Below, in pieces: positions 11,473 through 22,633 of a stretch of 64,000 nt of DNA. The position numbers and the translations under genes were made by a program. How positions within the stretch are numbered: the stretch's first letter is position 1; each line of letters begins with the position of its first letter. Source of the DNA: Myxococcota bacterium (lineage in GTDB: Bacteria > Myxococcota_A > UBA9160 > SMWR01); assembly GCA_039030075.1 (NCBI GenBank), contig JBCCEW010000006.1, forward strand, positions 1 to 64,000, in the 5' to 3' direction. Under the pieces are notes generated by a model, which was not told the DNA's origin, ran no database searches, and saw only the letters and a list, made by a program, of their open reading frames with translations.

Positions 11473-13635
11473 CTAGCGCGTGGCGTCGGCCGTCCGAGGG
11501 CCTGCGATCGCGTTCTGCGCGACCGGCGACTCGAGTGCGCGACGAGGCGGGACCGCCTCGCCGGCCACCTGGACGTAGGCGAGGTAGCGGTCGCGCACAG
11601 CGCGCACGTAGCGAACGGGCTCGTCGCAGCGGCAGTAGCCCATCGGGCTCTTCGCGGCGACGCTGCGGCTGCGCTTCGCCAGCATCGCCGTCTCGACGTG
11701 GCCGAACCAGCGGTTCGGGTCGAGGCCCCGCTCGCGAGCGAGCCGACGCGCGTCTGCCAGGTGCCCTTCGCCGGCGTTGTAGGCGGCGAGGGCGAGCCAG
11801 TTGCGATCCGCGACCGAGAGCGAGTCCTCGAGTCGACCGCGCAGGCGTGCCAGGTAGCGAATGCCGGCGTGGATGCCGGTTTCCGGGTGCTCGACGTTCG
11901 GAAGCCCCACCGAACGCGCGGTGCGCGGCATCACCTGCAGCAGGCCTCGCGCTCCCGCGAAGGAGCGCGCGCGCGGGTCGAACTTGCTCTCCTGGTGCAT
12001 CTGCGCGGCGATCAAGCGCCAATCGAAGCCGTAGCGGCTGGCGTAGCGCCGTAGCAGCTCGTCGAAGGGCGACAGGCGTCCCGCCCGTGAGGCGCGATTC
12101 TCCGCGTGGAGTCGAATGCGGGCCGGCGATCGGAAGTAGCGCTTCGCGAGCACGTTGTAGAAGGTGCCCCGGTACTCCTTGCGGAAGAAGGCGTCGATCT
12201 CCGCGCGGAGCTCCGGGTTGTGCCGACGCACGGCCCAGCCGAGTTCGGTGGACCCCGAGAGGGGCAGGGCAGCGCGGACGTCGTCGCGCCAGGCCAGCGC
12301 GATGTCGACGATGTGGCTGTCGGCGACGGTGAGGTCGTAGACGCCGAGCGCCACGCCCTCGATGATCTCTTCGGTCTCGAGATCCTCCGGCACGGCCTCG
12401 ATCTCGATCGCGAGGCCGCTCGCGCGGAGCGCGTGCAGGATCTGCCAATGCGCGCTGCTGCGTCGCACGTGAATGCGTCGACCCTCCAGCGCGGTGAGGT
12501 CGGCGAGTGAAGCTTCGTCCCGCCGCGCGACCACCATCGGGCGCACCCGCTGGGTGCGCTCGGAGAAGGAGACGCCCAGCGCTTCGGCGCGTTCGGGAGA
12601 CCGGAGGAGGGAGGCCGCGATCAGGTCGCCGCGTCCCTTCCGCAACCAGGGAACGAGATCCGCATGGGAGGGGGGCACCACCACTTCGAGCTCGACGCCG
12701 AGCCGGCGCGCGAACTCACGCGCCAGCTCGTACTCGAAGCCGAGGATCCGACCGTTCCAGACGTAGTGGTGGGCCGCGTTGCTGCGGGTGAGGACGCGGA
12801 GCACGCCGCGCTCGCGGATCGCGGCCAGGTCGCCGACCGAGCGCCCGGGGAACCGACGGTCCTGGCGGATCCGCGTGAGAAAGCCATCCACCGCGCGACG
12901 CAGCTTCGGTGCGTCGGGCGCGAGGGCCCAGGCGATCAGCGACATCCCGGGGAGCGCGAACGCGGCCCGCAGCTCGGGGTGGGCGGGCAGGAGGGGCGTC
13001 AACAGGTTGCTGTCGGCGAGGGTCAGGTCGAGATCGCCCTGCGCCACCCGTGCCAGCAGATGTTCGAGGCTCTGATCTTCGTCGACCGCCTCCACCGTGA
13101 TATCCGGGAACTCCTGCGCGAGCGCCTGCAGTCGTTCCCAGTGCGAGGACGAGCGTCGCACCCCGATGCGCCGTCCCGCGAGGTCGGCGGGGCCACGCAA
13201 GCGGGTCCCGTCGCGCCGCGCGACCACGAGCTCACGCACGACAGCCACCGGCGCCGTGAAGGCGACGCGTTCGCGGCGGGACGGGGTCACCGTCAGGTTC
13301 TCGGCGGCGAGATCGCCGCGTCCGTCGGCGATCGCGCGAATCACCTCGTCGAACCCGTCGACGTAGACCCAGCGCACCGACACGCCGAGCTCCTGGGCAA
13401 GGGCGACGGCCTGGCTGCGCTCGGCTTCGAGGGGACGACCCGCCGCGGGAAGCACGGGCGACGCCTCGTAGCGCGGGAGCACGACGCGCAGGTGGCCACG
13501 GCGTCGGATCGACTCGAGGTCGTCGGCGCGGGCGACTCCGGCCCACACCGACGTGAGCAACGCGATGCCGAGCAGCGCGACTCCGAGCGCCAGAGTGCGC
13601 GCGCCGCGCGAGAGCAGACCCGTTCCCCCCTGCAT
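11473..13635 (-). CDS. MltF-like membrane-bound lytic transglycosylase with two tandem solute-binding domains
   Basis: A 720-residue exported protein. A signal peptide runs to about residue 37 (ARA before DD). Two SBP_bac_3 (amino-acid-binding-type) domains follow, at about residues 39-262 and 265-510. They repeat each other: GRRIGVRRSSSHWERLQAL in the first matches GRRIHVRRSSAHWQILHAL in the second. A lytic transglycosylase (SLT) domain follows from about 535, with catalytic Glu549 in HQESKFDPRARS and the AYNAGEGH motif. Standard MltF has only one binding domain, so this is a duplication. The enzyme should cleave murein to anhydromuropeptides in the periplasm. ATG 13635 is chosen because it directly precedes the signal peptide. 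Confidence 0.88.
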   Translation of the reverse strand: MQGGTGLLSRGARTLALGVALLGIALLTSVWAGVARADDLESIRRRGHLRVVLPRYEASPVLPAAGRPLEAERSQAVALAQELGVSVRWVYVDGFDEVIRAIADGRGDLAAENLTVTPSRRERVAFTAPVAVVRELVVARRDGTRLRGPADLAGRRIGVRRSSSHWERLQALAQEFPDITVEAVDEDQSLEHLLARVAQGDLDLTLADSNLLTPLLPAHPELRAAFALPGMSLIAWALAPDAPKLRRAVDGFLTRIRQDRRFPGRSVGDLAAIRERGVLRVLTRSNAAHHYVWNGRILGFEYELAREFARRLGVELEVVVPPSHADLVPWLRKGRGDLIAASLLRSPERAEALGVSFSERTQRVRPMVVARRDEASLADLTALEGRRIHVRRSSAHWQILHALRASGLAIEIEAVPEDLETEEIIEGVALGVYDLTVADSHIVDIALAWRDDVRAALPLSGSTELGWAVRRHNPELRAEIDAFFRKEYRGTFYNVLAKRYFRSPARIRLHAENRASRAGRLSPFDELLRRYASRYGFDWRLIAAQMHQESKFDPRARSFAGARGLLQVMPRTARSVGLPNVEHPETGIHAGIRYLARLRGRLEDSLSVADRNWLALAAYNAGEGHLADARRLARERGLDPNRWFGHVETAMLAKRSRSVAAKSPMGYCRCDEPVRYVRAVRDRYLAYVQVAGEAVPPRRALESPVAQNAIAGPRTADATR

Positions 13636-13687: not shown

Positions 13688-15154
13688 CTAGGCGTCGCTG
13701 TCCTCCCGCCCGAGCCGCTGGCGCTGGAGCTTTCCGGCCGCCGTTCGGGGGAGACTCGAGACCGTTTCGAAGTGCGCGGGCACCTTGTAGCCGGCGAGTC
13801 GCGCGCGGCAGAAGCCCTCGAGCTCTTCTCCTGTGGGGGATGCGCCGTCGCGCGCGACGATCCACGCCCAGGGCACCTGGCCCCAGCGCTCATCGGAGCG
13901 GCCCGCGACGCCTACCTCGGCAACCTGGGGATGCGCGCTCAACACCGCCTCGATCTCGGCCGGGTAGACGTTCTCCCCCCCGGAAACGATCAGATCGCTG
14001 CGCCGCTCGAGCACGTGGAGTCGGCCCTGGGCGTCCCAGCGACCGAGGTCCCCCGTGCGCAGCCAGCCGTCACGCAGCGTCTCGGCCGTCGCCTCGGGGC
14101 GGTTCCAGTAGCCCCGCATCACCGTCGGGCCACGCACCCAGATCTCCCCGTCGGTGTCCGTGTCGCGACCCTCCGCGTCGACCACGCGCACCTCGGTTCC
14201 CCAGAGTGGAATCAGACCCGGATCGCTCGCGCGCTCGGGGGGGCTCGTCGCCACTTGCGAGGTCGCCTCGGTGAGCCCGTAGGTCAGCGCCACGGGGAAG
14301 CCGTTCGCCAGCGCGCGGTCGTGCAGCGGTTGTGGACACGGACCCCCACCCAGCAGCAGGAAGCGCAGCTCGGGCGGGACGGCGCCGCGGGGCCAGACGT
14401 CGAGCAGGCGTACGAGCATCGTCGCGGTGAGCGACAGTGCGCTGACGCCATCCTCCATCAAGGCGTCTGCAACGCGTTCGGGCTCGAAGCGGTCGTGCAC
14501 GACGACGGTGCTGCCCTGGAGCACGCTGCGCCAGAGAATCGAGAGACCTCCGACATGGAAGAGAGGCAGGCACGCGAGCCAGCGTTCCTGGGGCGACGAC
14601 CCCAGCCCGAAGGCCGAAGCGATGGCCGAGGCTTCGAAGTTCGCGGGCGTGAGGAGCGCGCCCTTCGGGCGTCCCGTCGTGCCCGAGGTGTAGATCAGCG
14701 TGGCCGCGCGAGCGTCGAGCGCGGGATCGGCCGGACGTGACAGCGCCAGGACGTCGCCGCGGTCGAGGTCGGGCCACGCGACGTGCGGTACGCCGGCCGA
14801 GGTCGCCGCCGCGACCGCGTCGTGTTCCGAGGGATCGTGGAGCAAGAGGGCCGCGCCCGCGTCCTCGAGCTGGAACGCGAGCTCGGCGGCGGTCAGGCGC
14901 CGGTTCAAGGGAACCAGGCAGAGCGCGAGCCGGCGCGCCGCGTGGACCGCGCGGGCGAGGTGCACGCCGTCCGGACAGGCGACCGCCAGTCGGTCGCCCG
15001 CTCCGAGGCCACAGCGCTCCAGCGCGTTCGCGACGTCCGACACCGAACGGTGAAGCTCCCCGTAGTCGAGGTGCACGTCGGCCCGTTCGAGGGCGCGGGC
15101 GGCGGGCGTTCGCGCGGCCCGCTCGGCCAGCCAATCGAGCGAACTCACGGGCAT
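13688..15154 (-). CDS. menE: o-succinylbenzoate--CoA ligase
   Basis: This is an acyl-adenylate-forming ligase, last gene of the menaquinone operon, which activates o-succinylbenzoate with CoA. The AMP-binding loop reads IYTSGTTGRPKGALLT (about residues 155-170), followed by YGLTEATSQ, the hinge TGDLGRWD and the terminal catalytic lysine in RTAAGKLQRQRL. Its identity as MenE rather than a general acyl-CoA ligase rests on position next to menC and menA. The start is ambiguous: ATG 15154, or GTG 15148 that would share a GTGA overlap with the menC stop. Either way translation is coupled to menC. Confidence 0.9.
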   Translation of the reverse strand: MPVSSLDWLAERAARTPAARALERADVHLDYGELHRSVSDVANALERCGLGAGDRLAVACPDGVHLARAVHAARRLALCLVPLNRRLTAAELAFQLEDAGAALLLHDPSEHDAVAAATSAGVPHVAWPDLDRGDVLALSRPADPALDARAATLIYTSGTTGRPKGALLTPANFEASAIASAFGLGSSPQERWLACLPLFHVGGLSILWRSVLQGSTVVVHDRFEPERVADALMEDGVSALSLTATMLVRLLDVWPRGAVPPELRFLLLGGGPCPQPLHDRALANGFPVALTYGLTEATSQVATSPPERASDPGLIPLWGTEVRVVDAEGRDTDTDGEIWVRGPTVMRGYWNRPEATAETLRDGWLRTGDLGRWDAQGRLHVLERRSDLIVSGGENVYPAEIEAVLSAHPQVAEVGVAGRSDERWGQVPWAWIVARDGASPTGEELEGFCRARLAGYKVPAHFETVSSLPRTAAGKLQRQRLGREDSDA

Positions 15155-16248
15155 GGGATGGCTTCGATCGGGGCGTCGGGAGCCCAGGCGAGGTGGACAT
15201 GCACCGCTCGGCGTTCGGTCGGCACGTGGAAGTGTCCGGTCTCGAGGCGCGGGGGCGCCCCGAGGTCGGCGGCGAGTACCGGACCCAACCCGGACGGCGG
15301 TCCCTTTGCGAGCGCAGCGGCCAGCGACACGGCGGCCCACGTCCCGACCGCGGAGTCGAGGAAGCCTCCGATCACCGGAAGTGCATCGGAGGCGCGTGCG
15401 AGCTCGGCCATCGCCTGGGTCGCGCGCAGCCCCCCCAGCACCGCCGGCTTGAGCACCCAGACATCGGCGGCCTGCCGCTCGGCGATGCGTCCCGCGCTCG
15501 CGTGGTTGCTCAGACACTCATCTGCGCCGAGCGGTACCGGCGAGGTCTCCCGCAAACGCGCCAGCGCCTCGACGTCGGCGACCGGCTGTTCGACCCAGGC
15601 CGGCCGGTACGGCGCCAGCGCCGCCAGTCGTTCGCGTGCGTCCGCCTCCTCCCACGCCCCGTTCGCGTCCAGCCGGAGCTCGACGGCGTCAGGGCAGACG
15701 CGCCGCACGGCGGCGACGCGCTCCAGGTCGGCGTTGCCGAGTCCTACCTTGAGCTTGAGCGCCGGGAACCCCGCAGCCACGGCGGCGGCGGCTTCCTCGC
15801 CGAGATCGCTGGGGCCGGTCGCGCTCAACAGGGCCGCGACCCCGACGCGTGCCCGCGGACGCCGGCGCCCTCGGTCGGCGAGCAACGCGGACAGGGGAAC
15901 CCCCTGCAAACGCGACGCGAGGTCGTGCAAGGCCGTATCCAGGGCGCCCCGGGCACAGGGGCGATCCTTCGCCATCGCATCGACGTGGTCGAGGTTCGTC
16001 ATCAGCGACCGGCGGCCGAATTTGCAGAGTTCTGCACCCACCGCGCGCAGGGCGGCTTCGGCTTCCTCCCGGGATTCCAGGCCGAACCCGGGCAGGGGCG
16101 CGGCCTCGCCGTAGCCGACTTCGCCCGAAGCGTCGCGCAGCAGCACGATCCAGCCCTCGCGCGCTCGGATCGTGCCGTGGGCCGTCGCCAGTGGAGTGCG
16201 CAACGGAAGCGTGAAGGGTCGCAGGCAGAACTCGGCGACCTGGATCAC
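15145..16248 (-). CDS. menC: o-succinylbenzoate synthase
   Basis: An enolase-superfamily enzyme that dehydrates SHCHC to o-succinylbenzoate. The barrel shows the Lys pair in ALKLKVG, metal ligands in LDANGAW, EQP and GADE, and the second-face lysine in VLKPA. The GTG start at 16248 shares a GTGA overlap with the menA stop, and the protein then begins IQVAEFCLRPF, as expected for MenC; a longer in-frame extension upstream is not credible. Length 367 aa. Confidence 0.92.
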   Translation of the reverse strand: MIQVAEFCLRPFTLPLRTPLATAHGTIRAREGWIVLLRDASGEVGYGEAAPLPGFGLESREEAEAALRAVGAELCKFGRRSLMTNLDHVDAMAKDRPCARGALDTALHDLASRLQGVPLSALLADRGRRRPRARVGVAALLSATGPSDLGEEAAAAVAAGFPALKLKVGLGNADLERVAAVRRVCPDAVELRLDANGAWEEADARERLAALAPYRPAWVEQPVADVEALARLRETSPVPLGADECLSNHASAGRIAERQAADVWVLKPAVLGGLRATQAMAELARASDALPVIGGFLDSAVGTWAAVSLAAALAKGPPSGLGPVLAADLGAPPRLETGHFHVPTERRAVHVHLAWAPDAPIEAIPCP

Positions 16249-17147
16249 GACAGCGCGATTCCCGCCGCGAAGAACGCCGAGAAGAGCAGCGCCAGCCGCG
16301 CGGTGCGTTCGAGGATCGGGTTGAGCGCCGAGCCTCGTTCGCGGCGCAACGCGCGCACCAGGCCGATCGCGGGCGGTGCGCACAAGAGCGGAAGCCAGAT
16401 CCACTGGGCATCGAGCAGGAGCCACCACACGAGCGGCACACCGAGGGCGAGTGCGACCAGCCCCGTGTACTCGGCCCGCGCCGCGGTCTCACCGAAGCGC
16501 ACGGCCAGCGTGCGCTTGCCGGCTACCCGATCCGTCGCCACGTCGCGCAGGTTGTTGACGCAGAGCACCGCCGTCGCGAGTGCGCCCACGGGCAGCGCCG
16601 CCCACCACGCCTCGAGCGGCAGCGTGCCGAGCTGCACCCAGACCGTGCCGCACACCGCACCGAGGCCGAAGAACAGGAACACCGCGACGTCGCCCAGGCC
16701 GTGATAACCCAGCGGGTACGGCCCGCCGGTGTACGCATAGCCCGCGGCGATCGATACCAGCCCGAGCGCCAGGATCGGCCAGCCGCCCACCGCGACGAGG
16801 TAGAGGCCGACGAGGAAGGCCAGCCCGAAGGCGAGCACGGCACCGCGTCGCATCTGATGGGCAGTGAGCCAGCCCTGCTGGACGGCGCGCGGCGGTCCCT
16901 GTCGCGCCTCGGTGTCGGCCCCCTTCTCGGCGTCGGCGAAGTCGTTGACGAAGTTGGACCCGATCTGCAGACACAGCGCCCCGGCCAGGGCGCCGAGGGC
17001 GGGAAGCCACTGGGGCTCGGCCGTGTGTGCGGCGACCGCCGTCCCGACGGCAACCGGCGCGACCGCCAGGGGCAACGTGCGCGGTCGGCTCGCGAGCCAC
17101 CACGCTTGCAGGGCCGAGGGACGTTCGGCCAGCGCCGCTTCAGCCAT
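16245..17147 (-). CDS. menA: 1,4-dihydroxy-2-naphthoate octaprenyltransferase
   Basis: A UbiA-family integral membrane prenyltransferase joining the polyprenyl tail to DHNA. At 300 residues it has about eight or nine hydrophobic helices. The first Asp-rich motif is NFVNDFADAEKGAD (about residues 65-78) and the second lies near NNLRDVATDRVAGKRT. The opening RPRTLPLAVAPVAVG is characteristic of MenA. The ATG at 17147 overlaps the menH stop by 8 nt. Confidence 0.94.
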   Translation of the reverse strand: MAEAALAERPSALQAWWLASRPRTLPLAVAPVAVGTAVAAHTAEPQWLPALGALAGALCLQIGSNFVNDFADAEKGADTEARQGPPRAVQQGWLTAHQMRRGAVLAFGLAFLVGLYLVAVGGWPILALGLVSIAAGYAYTGGPYPLGYHGLGDVAVFLFFGLGAVCGTVWVQLGTLPLEAWWAALPVGALATAVLCVNNLRDVATDRVAGKRTLAVRFGETAARAEYTGLVALALGVPLVWWLLLDAQWIWLPLLCAPPAIGLVRALRRERGSALNPILERTARLALLFSAFFAAGIALS

Positions 17148-17997
17148 CGTGGCTCGCTTCCGAACGGGCCTCGACGCGGCTCCAGAACTCCGAGAGGGAA
17201 GCGGCGAGGAAGTTGGCGTTCTCCCAGTGCGCGGCGTGCCCGGCTGCGGGGACGTCGACGCGCTGCGCGTCGGGGATCTGCCCAGCCATCTGGTCGGCGA
17301 TGGCGACGAACTTCGTGTCTTCGGCCCCGGCTGCGATCCAGCAGGGAACCGACAGCGTTCCCAGGGCGGCGTGCAGCGCCGGCTGTGCGCCGGTCCCCAT
17401 GCCCCGGAGCGAACCCGCCAGGCCCGACGCGCGCTGGGACAGCCGGTCGCGTCGAAGCGCGGCCCGGGTGTCGCCGTCGAGTCGGGTGGTCTGGGAAGCG
17501 AAGAGTGGCAGCGACTCCCACGACTCGACGAACGCGGCCACGCCGTCGGCTTCGATGCGCGCGGCCAGCGCTTCATCACTCGCGCGTCGCGCGGCGCGCT
17601 CGTCTTCGCCGGCGAGCCCGGGGCTCGCCCCCAGCAGCGCCAGCGACGCGACCTTCTCGGGAGCGCGCGCGGCCAAGGCCAGGGCCGTACGGCCCCCCAT
17701 CGAGTAGCCGAAGAGATGCACGCGCCCGAGCGCCTTCGCGTCGATGAGGGCCGACAGCTGTTCGACGCAAGCCTCCATCGCGTAGGGCGCCGCGACACTC
17801 GGGGCCTCGCTGGCGCCATGTCCGACAAGGTCGGGAGCGACGACGCGGTAGCGTTGCGACCACCGCGCGGCGAGCGGCGCGAACCCGCCCCCGGTTCCTG
17901 TGAAACCGTGGAGCGCGAGCACGCTCGGTCCGCGGCCCCAGGCATGCACGGCGAGGGACACGCCCGCGGCCGAGACGTGGGTCACACGCTCAGTCAA
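17140..17997 (-). CDS. menH: SHCHC synthase, alpha/beta hydrolase fold
   Basis: This enzyme removes pyruvate from SEPHCHC to give SHCHC. It has the alpha/beta-hydrolase pattern: LHGFTGTGGGF, nucleophile Ser in GYSMGG (about residue 98), Asp in GAEDTKF and His in AAGHAAHWEN. The start is TTG at 17997, overlapping the menD stop by 8 nt and preceded by AGAGG; a GTG four codons later lacks a ribosome site. Naming as MenH relies on position between menD and menA. Confidence 0.9.
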   Translation of the reverse strand: MTERVTHVSAAGVSLAVHAWGRGPSVLALHGFTGTGGGFAPLAARWSQRYRVVAPDLVGHGASEAPSVAAPYAMEACVEQLSALIDAKALGRVHLFGYSMGGRTALALAARAPEKVASLALLGASPGLAGEDERAARRASDEALAARIEADGVAAFVESWESLPLFASQTTRLDGDTRAALRRDRLSQRASGLAGSLRGMGTGAQPALHAALGTLSVPCWIAAGAEDTKFVAIADQMAGQIPDAQRVDVPAAGHAAHWENANFLAASLSEFWSRVEARSEASHDG

Positions 17998-19795
17998 GGG
18001 AGGCCTCTCGTGCGGCCTCGTGCATCGCCGCTTGCAACGTGCGTCGCTGTTCGACGCTCGCCGCGGCTCGGGTGGGAACGACGAGACAGCGCGGGCCCTC
18101 GGCCGCGGCGGCCTGCTTCAGCGCCGAGCGCAGATGGAGCCAGGAGGTGATGCGCTCGCTCGGAACGCCCGCTGCCTCCGACAGGCGGACGAGGTCGTGA
18201 CCATGCGGGGTGTGGAAGACCTCTTCGAACGAAGCGGCATCCCCGAACGCGGCGACCGGCAGCATCGAGAAGATGCCGCCACCGTCGTTGTCGACCACGA
18301 CCAAGGTGAGCGGAAGGCCGAGCCGTTGCGCGGTGAGCAGACCCGAGAGGTCGTGAAGGCACGCGAGGTCGCCCACGTAGAGGACGGTCCGCCCGCCGCG
18401 CGCGTGGGTCGCCCCGGCTGCCGACGAGATCAGACCATCGATCCCGTTCGCACCCCGATTGCAGAGCACGCGGGGGCCCGCGTGGCCGCTCGGCCAGAAC
18501 TGATCGAGGTCGCGGACCGGCATGCTGCTCGAGACGTAGAGGGCGTCCTCGGGACCGAGGCTCCCGATCAGCTCGTGGGCGACGCGCGCCTCGAGAAGTT
18601 CCTCCTCGGCGGCGAGTGTCGCTTCCAGCACGCGGTCCGCAGCGGCGTCGGCCCGGGCGAAGGCCGCCTGCCAAGTGCCTTGTTCCGGTTTCGGGAGCTG
18701 CGACGCCAGCGTGTCCGCAAACGCCGCGATCTCGGTTTGCCACCACTCGCTCGCCCGGTGGTCCGGATCGTGCCAATGCTCCGCCGGGTCGACGACGACA
18801 TAGACGTCCGGTGCTGCGTCGCGCAGCCAGTGGGCAATGGGCTTCGAGGTGGGTGCGGCACCGAAGCGCAGCACCGCATCGGGTCGGTGGGCGGCAGCGA
18901 AGTCCGGGTCGGCCATCAGCGCGTGGGCCCGGCCGATGCCGGCGCCGCCGAGCTGCGCGGTGGCCTCGCCGAGCAGCGGCCACCCCAACCGGTCCGCGAG
19001 CGCGACCAGCGCGTCGCGTTCGCGCGGCGTCGCATCGAGCGGTCCCACCACGACGACACCCCGCTCCGCGGTACGAAGTTGCTCGACCAGGCCTGCGAAG
19101 GCGGCCTCGTTCGGTAGCGGGGCCGCTGCTTCGACGCGCGCGTAGGCGCTCCGGTCGCGGCCGCTTTCGGCCACCGTCGAACGCGGGGATGCCCTGTCGG
19201 CTGGCACCGGTCGCGGGTCGAGCGGATCCCGGAACGGCAGGTTCAGATGCACCGGGCCGGGTACGGTCCCCGACGCGACTTCAGCGGCCCGACAGGCCAG
19301 CGCGCGTGCGTAGCGGAGCCCGGCCTCGTCGGCCTCGGGGAGGGGCGCCTCGGCGAACCAACGCACATGGCTCCCGTACAGGCGCGGCTGGTCGATGGTC
19401 TGGCCGGCGCCCCAGTCGCGCAGCTCGGGCGGTCGGTCGGCCGTGAGCACGAGCAGCGGAACCCGCGCATAGTGCGCTTCCACGACGGCGGGCGCGAAGT
19501 TCGCGGCGGCCGTGCCCGAAGTGCAGAGCACGATGGCGGGCGCGCGCGAGGCCTTCGCGACGCCCAATGCGAAGAACGCCGCCGAGCGCTCGTCGAGGTG
19601 AACGCTGTGGGGAAGTGCCGCCTGGGCGGCCGCGATGGCGAGCGGGGCAGAGCGGGAGCCCGGACACACGCAGACATGCGTCACTACAGCGCGTTCCCAT
19701 TCCTCGAACAGGGCGTGGGCCACGGCCAGGTTGCGGTTCGGTGCATCCGCCACCGGGCTCGCGACCGGCGGCGGTGTGTCCGACGGCGGAGCCAC
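17990..19795 (-). CDS. menD: SEPHCHC synthase (2-oxoglutarate decarboxylase/isochorismate adding)
   Basis: A ThDP-dependent enzyme that adds the succinyl semialdehyde unit of 2-oxoglutarate to isochorismate. Diagnostic segments are VCPGSRSAPL, the catalytic-glutamate region HLDERSAAFFALG, LTADRPPELRDWGAGQTIDQ, and the C-terminal ThDP motif GDLACLHD...NDGGGIF. The start is uncertain: GTG 19795 (TAGTG junction with the menF stop, about 600 aa) is taken. GTG 19831 would extend it, and GTG 19753 would match E. coli MenD more closely. Confidence 0.93.
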   Translation of the reverse strand: MAPPSDTPPPVASPVADAPNRNLAVAHALFEEWERAVVTHVCVCPGSRSAPLAIAAAQAALPHSVHLDERSAAFFALGVAKASRAPAIVLCTSGTAAANFAPAVVEAHYARVPLLVLTADRPPELRDWGAGQTIDQPRLYGSHVRWFAEAPLPEADEAGLRYARALACRAAEVASGTVPGPVHLNLPFRDPLDPRPVPADRASPRSTVAESGRDRSAYARVEAAAPLPNEAAFAGLVEQLRTAERGVVVVGPLDATPRERDALVALADRLGWPLLGEATAQLGGAGIGRAHALMADPDFAAAHRPDAVLRFGAAPTSKPIAHWLRDAAPDVYVVVDPAEHWHDPDHRASEWWQTEIAAFADTLASQLPKPEQGTWQAAFARADAAADRVLEATLAAEEELLEARVAHELIGSLGPEDALYVSSSMPVRDLDQFWPSGHAGPRVLCNRGANGIDGLISSAAGATHARGGRTVLYVGDLACLHDLSGLLTAQRLGLPLTLVVVDNDGGGIFSMLPVAAFGDAASFEEVFHTPHGHDLVRLSEAAGVPSERITSWLHLRSALKQAAAAEGPRCLVVPTRAAASVEQRRTLQAAMHEAAREASLD

Positions 19796-21189
19796 TAGAG
19801 ATCCAGCAGCAGTGGCAGGACGACGTTCCACTTGAGACGGGTCTCGCGCAGCTCGGCGTCCGGATCCGAGCCCGCCACGATACCGCCGCCGGCGAAGAGT
19901 CGCGCGCGTCGGTCCTGGACCAACGCGCAGCGAAGCGCGGCGGATAGCTCGCCTTCGCCGTCCGGGGTGGTGAAGCCGACGAGCCCCGCGTACCAGCCGC
20001 GCTCGAGCGCTTCGTGCTCACCCAGCCAGGCGCGCGACGCGAGCCGCGGCGCGCCCGAGACGGCCGCGGTCGGATGCGAGCGTCGCGCGACGTCGAAGAG
20101 GGAAGCATCGCTCTCGAAGTGGCCGCGCAGCGGCGTGTGCAGGTGGCGCACCCCGCCGAGCTCGAGCACGCCCGGCGAATCCGGGGCGTCGACTTCGGCG
20201 CCCGCGTCTTCGAGGGCGTCGCGCAACTCACGGACCGCCACCGCGTGCTCGGCCTGTTCCTTCTTGCTCTCGACGAGTGCGCGGCGAAGGCGGCCGTCCT
20301 CCTCCGGGTCGCGGCCGCGCGCGGCCGACCCGGCCAGCGCCATCGCGCGGATCTCGCTGCCTTCGCGTCGCAGGAGGCGCTCCGGGGTGGCCCCGACGAA
20401 ATCCGAATCGCCGAGCCCGACCCAGAACGTCGCACTCGCCGGGTGACCGTGGCGCAGCTCGTGAGTGAGCTTCCAGACGTCGATCGGAGCCTCGCGCTCG
20501 ACGTCCAGCGCGCGGGCCACCACGGCCTTCTCGAGTTCGCCACGCGAGATCGCGGCCAGTGCCGCTTCGACCAGTGCGCGATGCTCGGCTGCAGCCCGGG
20601 CCGTTTCCAGATGCAGCGCTTCGGCAGCGCGCGAGGGGCAGGCGGTCGGTGTCGGGGCGGAGGCCACCGCCCACGCGGCTTCGACGCGCTCGACGGTCGT
20701 TGCCGGGTCATCGCCTGGATCGACGGCGACCGTGGCGGTGCAGTGTCCGAGCTCGCCCGTGCGTGTCCACAGGGTCTCGGGGATCCACCAGCACGCCGGC
20801 GGGAAGGCGTCCCACAGGCCGTGGCTCGGCGCATCGTCGAAGGCGAAGCCCCCGACCCACAGGGGGCTACCGGACGAACCACCGCCGGTGTCCGTTCCCC
20901 ACCAGAGTCGCGCCGAGACATCCGCCATCCGCTCTTGCGCGGTTTCGAAGCGACGGGTCCCCTGGGCCATCACGCTCGCGGCCTGGCCTCGCCCCGCCCA
21001 GGCGCGCTCGGCCGCGGGAATGGCGTAGCCGAAGCGGGCCTTCGGCGAGCCGATCAGCCGTTCGAAGAGATCTCCTTCCGACGTATCGGTCCGCGTCCAC
21101 GCGAGCCATTGGCGACGCGCTTCGCGACCGGCGGTGGCGCACGCCTCTGCCGCCGCATCGGCGAGGGTGGTTTCCGCGCGCCGCCTCAC
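19795..21189 (-). CDS. menF: isochorismate synthase
   Basis: A chorismate-utilising enzyme converting chorismate to isochorismate, the committed step to menaquinone. The C-terminal MST-type catalytic domain shows GELEKAVVARALDV, GATPERLLRREG, MALAGSAARGRDPEED and the terminal FAGGGIVAGSDPDAE. At 464 residues it has the usual length, with a variable N-terminal part. The GTG at 21189 shares a GTGA overlap with the ubiE stop. An EntC-type role is unlikely given the men context. Confidence 0.93.
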   Translation of the reverse strand: MRRRAETTLADAAAEACATAGREARRQWLAWTRTDTSEGDLFERLIGSPKARFGYAIPAAERAWAGRGQAASVMAQGTRRFETAQERMADVSARLWWGTDTGGGSSGSPLWVGGFAFDDAPSHGLWDAFPPACWWIPETLWTRTGELGHCTATVAVDPGDDPATTVERVEAAWAVASAPTPTACPSRAAEALHLETARAAAEHRALVEAALAAISRGELEKAVVARALDVEREAPIDVWKLTHELRHGHPASATFWVGLGDSDFVGATPERLLRREGSEIRAMALAGSAARGRDPEEDGRLRRALVESKKEQAEHAVAVRELRDALEDAGAEVDAPDSPGVLELGGVRHLHTPLRGHFESDASLFDVARRSHPTAAVSGAPRLASRAWLGEHEALERGWYAGLVGFTTPDGEGELSAALRCALVQDRRARLFAGGGIVAGSDPDAELRETRLKWNVVLPLLLDL

Positions 21190-21884
21190 GAGCGCACCCC
21201 GATCAGGATCTGGGCCGTGCCGAGGAGCAATCGCTGCTTCGTGATCTCGCTGAAGCCGGCGAGCTCGAGCATCTCGCGCAGATCGTCGTCGCCCGGCAGG
21301 TAACTCGTCGATTGGGGCAGGTAGGCATAGGCCGCACGGTCGGAAAGCCAGCCGCCCACCTTCGGAACGACGCGATCGAAGTAGAGCGAGTGTCCTGCGC
21401 GCACCACGCCGCTCGGAGGGCGGTCGACCTCGATCAGCACCAGGCGTCCGCCCGGCGTCAACACGCGTCCCATCTCTCGGAACACCTGACCCAGCTCGAC
21501 GAAGTTGCGCAGCGCGAAGCCGCAGGTGAGGACCGTCGCCGAACCCGTCGCGAAGGGCAGGGCGGCGCCATCTCCCTGCGCCAGCGAAACCCCTTCGAGT
21601 CGCCGCTGGGCCCCGCGCAGCATCTCGCGCGCGAAGTCCACGCCGATCACCTGGGCACCCCGCGCCGCGGCCTGCTCGGCGAGATCCCCGGTACCGCAGG
21701 CGAGATCGACCAGGATGTCGTCGGCACCGACTTCGGCTGCGTCCAGCGCACGGCTGCGCCAGCGCTGATCCAGCCCGAGGGTCATGATCCGGTTCAGCGC
21801 GTCGTAGCGCGGGGCGATGCGATCGAACATCGCCTTCACCGCGGCGCGCTTCTCTTCCGGCGGCGGTAGGGCGTCTATCGCCAT
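21186..21884 (-). CDS. ubiE: demethylmenaquinone methyltransferase
   Basis: A SAM-dependent methyltransferase making the last step to menaquinone (MenG/UbiE). The SAM motif is VDLACGTGDLAEQA (about residues 59-72). The UbiE signatures YDALNRIMTLGLDQRWR and LIEVDRPP, and the later YLPQSTSYLP, are present. At 232 residues it is normal. The ATG at 21884 overlaps the stop of the upstream MerR-type gene by 10 nt. Menaquinone, not ubiquinone, is the likely substrate because only men genes surround it. Confidence 0.94.
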   Translation of the reverse strand: MAIDALPPPEEKRAAVKAMFDRIAPRYDALNRIMTLGLDQRWRSRALDAAEVGADDILVDLACGTGDLAEQAAARGAQVIGVDFAREMLRGAQRRLEGVSLAQGDGAALPFATGSATVLTCGFALRNFVELGQVFREMGRVLTPGGRLVLIEVDRPPSGVVRAGHSLYFDRVVPKVGGWLSDRAAYAYLPQSTSYLPGDDDLREMLELAGFSEITKQRLLLGTAQILIGVRS

Positions 21885-22627
21885 GCGACCTCCACTTCGA
21901 GGCGCGCTTGATCCAAGGCTTCCAGAGCGGCTTCGAGCGCGTCGCGCTCCTCGCTGCCGTCGAGACGCTGCAGCGCGCGCGTCACGAGCGTGCGCTGGAA
22001 GTGCATCGCCACCAACCGCGTCACCATCGGCAGCAGCTGCTGGAACTGGTCGGTGATGGCGTGAAGGTCGCCGGCGGTCTCGCCGCCCTTGCGAATGTGG
22101 TCGTCGAAGAGCCCGATCGCGGCGTCGCAGGTCTCGCGGATGTTCCGGTTGTGGGCGGTGGCCTGCTGCAAGAGCAGGTGCAGCGGAAAGCCCGCCTTCA
22201 GGAGATCCATCCCGACGCGCGCGATCTCGACATCGGCTTCGCTGAAGCGGGGCTCGCCGTCGGTATCGAGGGGCTCGAGCAGCCCCGTCTGGATCGCGGC
22301 GCGCAGCAGCACCTCGGGCACACCCGACTCGGCCGCGAGTTCCGGGAGGGTCCAGGTGCGATTGCCGACGCGGGCATCCACGAGGGCCTGGAGCAGGGTG
22401 CGCTCTTCCCCCTGCTCGGACGCGAGCACCTTCTGGATCTGGTCGAGACTGAACCCCTGTCCCTGCAGATCCCGGATGCGCCGCAGCCGCTCCACGTGGG
22501 GTTCGCCGTAGTAGGCGACCCGACCGCGGCGGATGGGCGGATCGAGCAGGCCGCGACCCTGATAGAAGCGGATCGTGTCCACTCCCACTCCGGTCGAGGA
22601 GGCCAGCGCTTCGACGAGATATTCCAC
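21875..22627 (-). CDS. MerR-family transcriptional regulator heading the men operon
   Basis: A 250-residue regulator. The N-terminal winged helix reads STGVGVDTIRFYQGRGLLDPP and RVAYYGEPHVERLRRIRDLQ, both diagnostic of MerR. The long C-terminal part is helical, lacks the cysteines of metal-sensing MerR proteins and has no recognised ligand domain. It is the first gene of the operon and overlaps ubiE by 10 nt, so it probably controls menaquinone synthesis and its own expression. The GTG at 22627 sits exactly where MerR proteins begin and follows a TATAAT by only 6 nt. Confidence 0.88.
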   Translation of the reverse strand: MEYLVEALASSTGVGVDTIRFYQGRGLLDPPIRRGRVAYYGEPHVERLRRIRDLQGQGFSLDQIQKVLASEQGEERTLLQALVDARVGNRTWTLPELAAESGVPEVLLRAAIQTGLLEPLDTDGEPRFSEADVEIARVGMDLLKAGFPLHLLLQQATAHNRNIRETCDAAIGLFDDHIRKGGETAGDLHAITDQFQQLLPMVTRLVAMHFQRTLVTRALQRLDGSEERDALEAALEALDQARLEVEVAWR

Positions 22628-22633
22628 GCATTC

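Follow-up and report, generated by a model that had tools for sequence, protein, structure and literature searches.

A widespread, apparently undescribed variant of the lytic transglycosylase MltF with two tandem solute-binding domains

MltF (membrane-bound lytic transglycosylase F), a family 1E enzyme of P. aeruginosa and E. coli, carries an SBP_bac_3 regulatory domain directly N-terminal of its SLT catalytic domain. The P. aeruginosa enzyme is described as being activated when muropeptides occupy this regulatory domain (PMC10746161). A gene in the 64,000-nucleotide stretch of Myxococcota DNA analysed here (contig JBCCEW010000006.1, positions 1 to 64,000; the window) encodes a protein with two such domains ahead of the SLT domain, and the initial annotation saw in it a new control arrangement in which two ligand inputs act on one murein-cleaving enzyme. 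This raises the question of what the additional domain is, how old it is, and whether it could bring a second signal to murein cleavage.

Two sensor domains on an MltF core

The reading frame runs on the minus strand from an ATG at 13635 down to 11473, stop codon included, and encodes 720 amino acids (Table 1). Pfam detected SBP_bac_3 in two stretches of the protein (112.2 bits, cut-off 26.4; best stretch 287-502), and a scan of the genome placed the two matches at 12130-12786 (64.1 bits) and 13159-13410 (44.3 bits), both above the same cut-off. With the SLT match, the domain search thus returned two SBP_bac_3 domains and one SLT domain, all above their cut-offs, as had been anticipated. The signal peptide of the window protein is not accompanied by the lipobox pattern that is found in 29 of 42 double-domain relatives.

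Table 1. Features of the transglycosylase gene, in window coordinates
Feature	Position	Strand	Basis
MltF-type lytic transglycosylase with tandem solute-binding domains, complete gene	11473..13635	(-)	ORF and translation; NCBIfam NF008112
Sec-type signal peptide, residues 1-37, without lipobox cysteine	13525..13635	(-)	Sequence inspection
D1, N-terminal SBP_bac_3 / Venus-flytrap domain, residues 40-262	12850..13518	(-)	Pfam; D1 family profile against PDB
Codons 62-64, Leu-Pro-Ala, D1-specific pocket-entrance motif	13444..13452	(-)	Column comparison
Arg120 codon, presumed ligand-carboxylate anchor of D1	13276..13278	(-)	Alignment column
Asp208 codon, presumed ligand-amino anchor of D1	13012..13014	(-)	Alignment column
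D2, second SBP_bac_3 / Venus-flytrap domain (residues 269-505), counterpart of the lone regulatory domain in MltF	12121..12831	(-)	Pfam, PDB profile search, tree
Arg349 codon, D2 counterpart of Arg120	12589..12591	(-)	Same alignment column
Asp439 codon, D2 counterpart of Asp208	12319..12321	(-)	Same alignment column
SLT catalytic domain, residues 528-636	11728..12054	(-)	Pfam 78.9 bits, cut-off 21.3; same coordinates in genome scan
Glu549 codon, catalytic glutamate by alignment with P. aeruginosa MltF	11989..11991	(-)	phmmer alignment

The two sensor domains are homologous to each other, as first proposed. Aligned to D2, the window D1 scores 318, whereas 500 shuffles average 37 and reach 67 at most; the two are 38.5% identical, and the motif GRRI-VRRSS-HW is found in both. 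In the genome scan the D1 match spans only positions 29-98 of the 132 in the Pfam profile. A family profile built from 22 of the 42 D1 sequences has the P. aeruginosa MltF regulatory domain as its top PDB chain and aligns to it over 2-214 of 219 positions, indicating that the first domain is not a partial fragment. This coverage, with dN/dS values of 0.05-0.24 in all eight pairs compared, rules out a fragment or a decaying copy. MltF was also the top PDB match of the D2 profile. An origin of D1 in BvgS or in an amino-acid transporter is likewise ruled out, because among solved structures MltF chains are its best matches, with BvgS well below (1.4e-27 versus 1.5e-34). AlphaFold models, made from alignments of three sequences each, reached pLDDT values of 50.7 and 56.5, too poor to show clefts.

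From D2 onwards the protein resembles MltF. D2 lies directly ahead of the SLT domain in the manner of the MltF regulatory domain, and residues 270-684 align with P. aeruginosa MltF, including the catalytic glutamate and the C-terminal stretch to about residue 690. The claim of an intact SLT domain with Glu549 holds: besides the Pfam score, this residue pairs in the phmmer alignment with the glutamate of the QES motif in P. aeruginosa MltF, whose catalytic residue is given as E316 (PMC10746161). The column holds Glu in 40 of 42 double-domain relatives. Two divergent doubles from the window's phylum, L041 (G198) and L043 (G270), have Val and Gly there and may, judging from this substitution, be non-catalytic sensors or binding proteins. 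The window protein differs from MltF in its extra, complete N-terminal flytrap with a pocket-entrance motif of its own, and in having two SBP_bac_3 stretches where the solved MltF structures have a single regulatory domain. A separate variation was seen by eye in L028 (G049), a single-domain MltF relative with a peptidoglycan-binding-like C-terminal extension after the SLT domain.

A gap of 52 bases separates the gene from an AMP-ligase-like (menE-like) reading frame that precedes it on the same strand. That frame belongs to a run (13688-22631, minus strand) that by eye resembles a menaquinone cluster, with menE-, menC-, menA-, menH-, menD-, menF- and methyltransferase-like frames. The sister genome G001 retains the menE-like neighbour upstream and, on the opposite flank, a cysteine-synthase-like gene. 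A comparison of 23 neighbourhoods revealed no conserved operon partner, the neighbours of the window gene being shared by G001 only.

Age and spread of the double architecture

How old the first domain is was addressed with two trees. In a quick tree of 106 domains (42 D1, 42 D2, 21 from single-domain proteins and one outgroup), a branch with an SH-aLRT of 97 parts D1 from D2 and the singles. In a careful tree of 47 domains, drawn from 20 of the 42 doubles and seven of the 21 singles, all D1 sequences form one clade across phyla with support of 100/100, while the D2 domains form a group of their own beside single-domain MltF (87/84). Constraining D1 and D2 of the window lineage to group together costs 132 log-likelihood units (AU test on the careful tree, p-AU 5.17e-05). 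These phylogenies place the divergence of D1 and D2 before the separation of the window lineage and Gammaproteobacteria. The only pointer towards a recent, lineage-specific duplication without established function is raw identity, since the window D1 is nearer to its own D2 than to Pseudomonadales D1 (24%); under the tree model, this higher identity within the protein reflects fast evolution of D1. Given the cost of the constraint and the single D1 clade, we regard a recent duplication, which the likeness of the two domains had invited, as highly improbable, and the tree and AU test reject it under the model used. The trees cannot say whether D1 was gained in the doubles or lost in the singles.

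Contrary to the first interpretation, the double architecture is also not a local novelty. Among 60 relatives, 18 match at E <= 1e-20, and three of these are doubles: the window genome, its sister G001 and G038 from the same order; the other 15 are single-domain MltF or partial matches. Within the window's phylum (377 genomes), 12 genomes reach E <= 1e-90, of which 10, counting the window genome, carry the double. A sample of 369 Gammaproteobacteria, the class to which the L030-bearing Pseudomonadales MAG belongs, gave 42 matches at E <= 1e-110, at least 39 of them doubles by alignment span, and the whole phylum of that MAG (398 genomes) contains at least five genomes with the double. All of these counts are lower bounds, as the thresholds were strict and no more than two or three candidates from each genome were scored. 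All 10 relatives scanned with Pfam have a pair of SBP_bac_3 stretches together with an SLT domain, and the two named records with the double are a Pseudomonadales MAG and a Gammaproteobacteria MAG. No double was found in the plasmid collection, where none of 35 matching records covers 80% of the query, and the three matching loci on viral contigs match in the SLT region only.

The two main groups of carriers differ in what accompanies the double. A separate single-domain MltF-like match is present in 24 of 32 double-bearing gammaproteobacterial genomes (one of the 24 being partial) versus none of 10 in the window's phylum (E <= 1e-40), so that the double is a paralogue in Gammaproteobacteria and stands by itself in the window's phylum. 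Two further loci deserve mention. In G099 (contig 3, 93388-97572), one of the 10 double-bearing genomes of the window's phylum, the double-domain genes L038 and L044 are adjacent, a second-level duplication. In G740 (contig 173, 5783-7162) a second, strong match (564 bits) aligns from profile position 242 on within a frame of 677 amino acids, and the N-terminal part of that protein may be a further diverged first domain.

Current naming hides this architecture. The window protein scores 408.7 bits against NF008112, the NCBIfam MltF equivalog, above the cut-off of 354, and NCBI's model would give it the name MltF; with the many genomes counted above, the architecture thus turns out to be common under the MltF name, contrary to the novelty first claimed for it. 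Our search of the open-licence PMC literature found no description of two solute-binding domains on a lytic transglycosylase, and the double-flytrap protein is apparently a widespread but undescribed MltF variant. The name MltF2 is unsuitable for it, as it already denotes a different family 1E enzyme of P. aeruginosa (PMC4694138).

Ligand-site residues and selection on D1

Whether D1 could still bind a ligand can be judged from two alignment columns, which we take to be those that hold the carboxylate and amino groups of the ligand in amino-acid binding proteins. The first is Arg in 35 of 42 D1, 31 of 42 D2 and 19 of 21 single-domain MltF sequences; the second is Asp in 38 of 42, 37 of 42 and 20 of 21, respectively, and in a 22-sequence alignment of D2 domains D439 is invariant. 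The pocket entrance tells the two domains apart. Position 62 is aromatic (Phe or Tyr) in every D2 (42/42) and every single (21/21), and Leu or Val in 35 of 42 D1 domains; at position 64, Arg prevails in D1 and Trp is the commonest residue in D2; and at position 210 most D1 domains have Asn where D2 has His. By column count, Leu-Pro-Arg occupies positions 62-64 in 27 of 42 D1 domains, and the window protein has Leu-Pro-Ala. This combination of kept anchors and a changed entrance agrees with a D1 binding site whose side-chain pocket differs, and agrees less well with a spent copy.

Substitution rates point the same way as the anchors, indicating that D1 is under purifying selection. Its dN/dS ranges from 0.054 to 0.241 in eight close pairs, the values being rough in the four pairs where dS exceeds 1, and that of D2 from 0.060 to 0.339 in the seven computable pairs. 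D1 is nevertheless the least conserved domain, with 15 columns conserved at >= 85% versus 25 in D2 and 54 in SLT. Because each of the two complete domains retains the presumed Arg and Asp anchors, the two ligand inputs proposed for this enzyme are plausible, and the systematic difference at the pocket entrance makes inputs of different specificity plausible, though unproven.

Possible roles of the outer flytrap

Tandem flytraps that act on one output are known from other sensors. The sensor kinases BvgS and EvgS also have two tandem periplasmic flytraps ahead of the output domain. BvgS homologues are described with one to five flytraps, and both flytraps of BvgS affect output, the kinase being switched off on closing of VFT1 or by nicotinate at VFT2 (PMC4352136). 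CdgH, a diguanylate cyclase of Vibrio cholerae, has tandem PBPb domains that differ in ligand preference, one preferring Arg, Lys and Orn and the other Gln and His (PMC5431781). Unlike BvgS, which signals across the membrane to a cytoplasmic kinase, and CdgH, whose output is a cytoplasmic diguanylate cyclase and not a murein enzyme, the window protein has a periplasmic murein-cleaving output: Pfam found no kinase or cyclase domain in it, and the output is SLT.

These precedents, the D1 clade (100/100), the kept anchors and the purifying selection on D1 lead us to a reading in which the window protein is an MltF-like (family 1E) lytic transglycosylase of the periplasm, from an old and widespread two-flytrap subfamily. 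D2 and SLT form an ordinary MltF core, and by homology with P. aeruginosa MltF, muropeptide occupancy of D2 would open the catalytic site. D1 is an additional flytrap of MltF origin that retains the presumed ligand anchors behind an altered entrance, and would most likely bind a different amino-acid- or peptide-like ligand. Its open or closed state would be passed via D2 to the catalytic domain, and murein cleavage would thereby depend on two cues. What the sequences establish is the domain anatomy, a single and ancient origin of D1, its divergent pocket and the purifying selection on it; the reading as a whole has, in our view, an even chance. Residue 64 of the motif is Ala rather than Arg in the window protein, D1 is the domain with the fewest conserved columns, and no conserved gene neighbour in the 23 neighbourhoods points to a ligand, all of which speak against two inputs. 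A more specific form of this reading, an ancient dual-input class whose outer flytrap senses a non-peptidoglycan cue such as a free amino acid and gates turnover together with a muropeptide-sensing inner flytrap, is possible but doubtful.

That D1 and D2 are each nearest to the regulatory domain of MltF, and share the same Arg and Asp anchors, would also suit flytraps that bind the same ligand class, muropeptides or peptidoglycan stem peptides, with D1 adding avidity, cooperativity or substrate capture instead of a second signal. The systematic differences at positions 62, 64 and 210 across 42 proteins, and the very long separation of D1 and D2 in the tree, make us think this unlikely. Low conservation is in turn consistent with a looser structural role, in which D1 would serve as a spacer, dimerisation face or partner docking surface without a functional ligand; the membrane-distal flytrap of BvgS, which gives dimer contacts and is unliganded in the crystal (PMC4352136), offers a parallel. 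A ligand-free scaffold would not need the anchors that most D1 domains keep, nor does purifying selection on D1 favour it, and we judge such a role still less probable than shared ligands.

A family model that calls all of these proteins MltF conceals a second, distinct architecture, one that coexists with ordinary MltF in most of the double-bearing Gammaproteobacteria examined. If D1 does read a second ligand, a single polypeptide would couple cell-wall cleavage directly to a metabolite from outside or from the periplasm.
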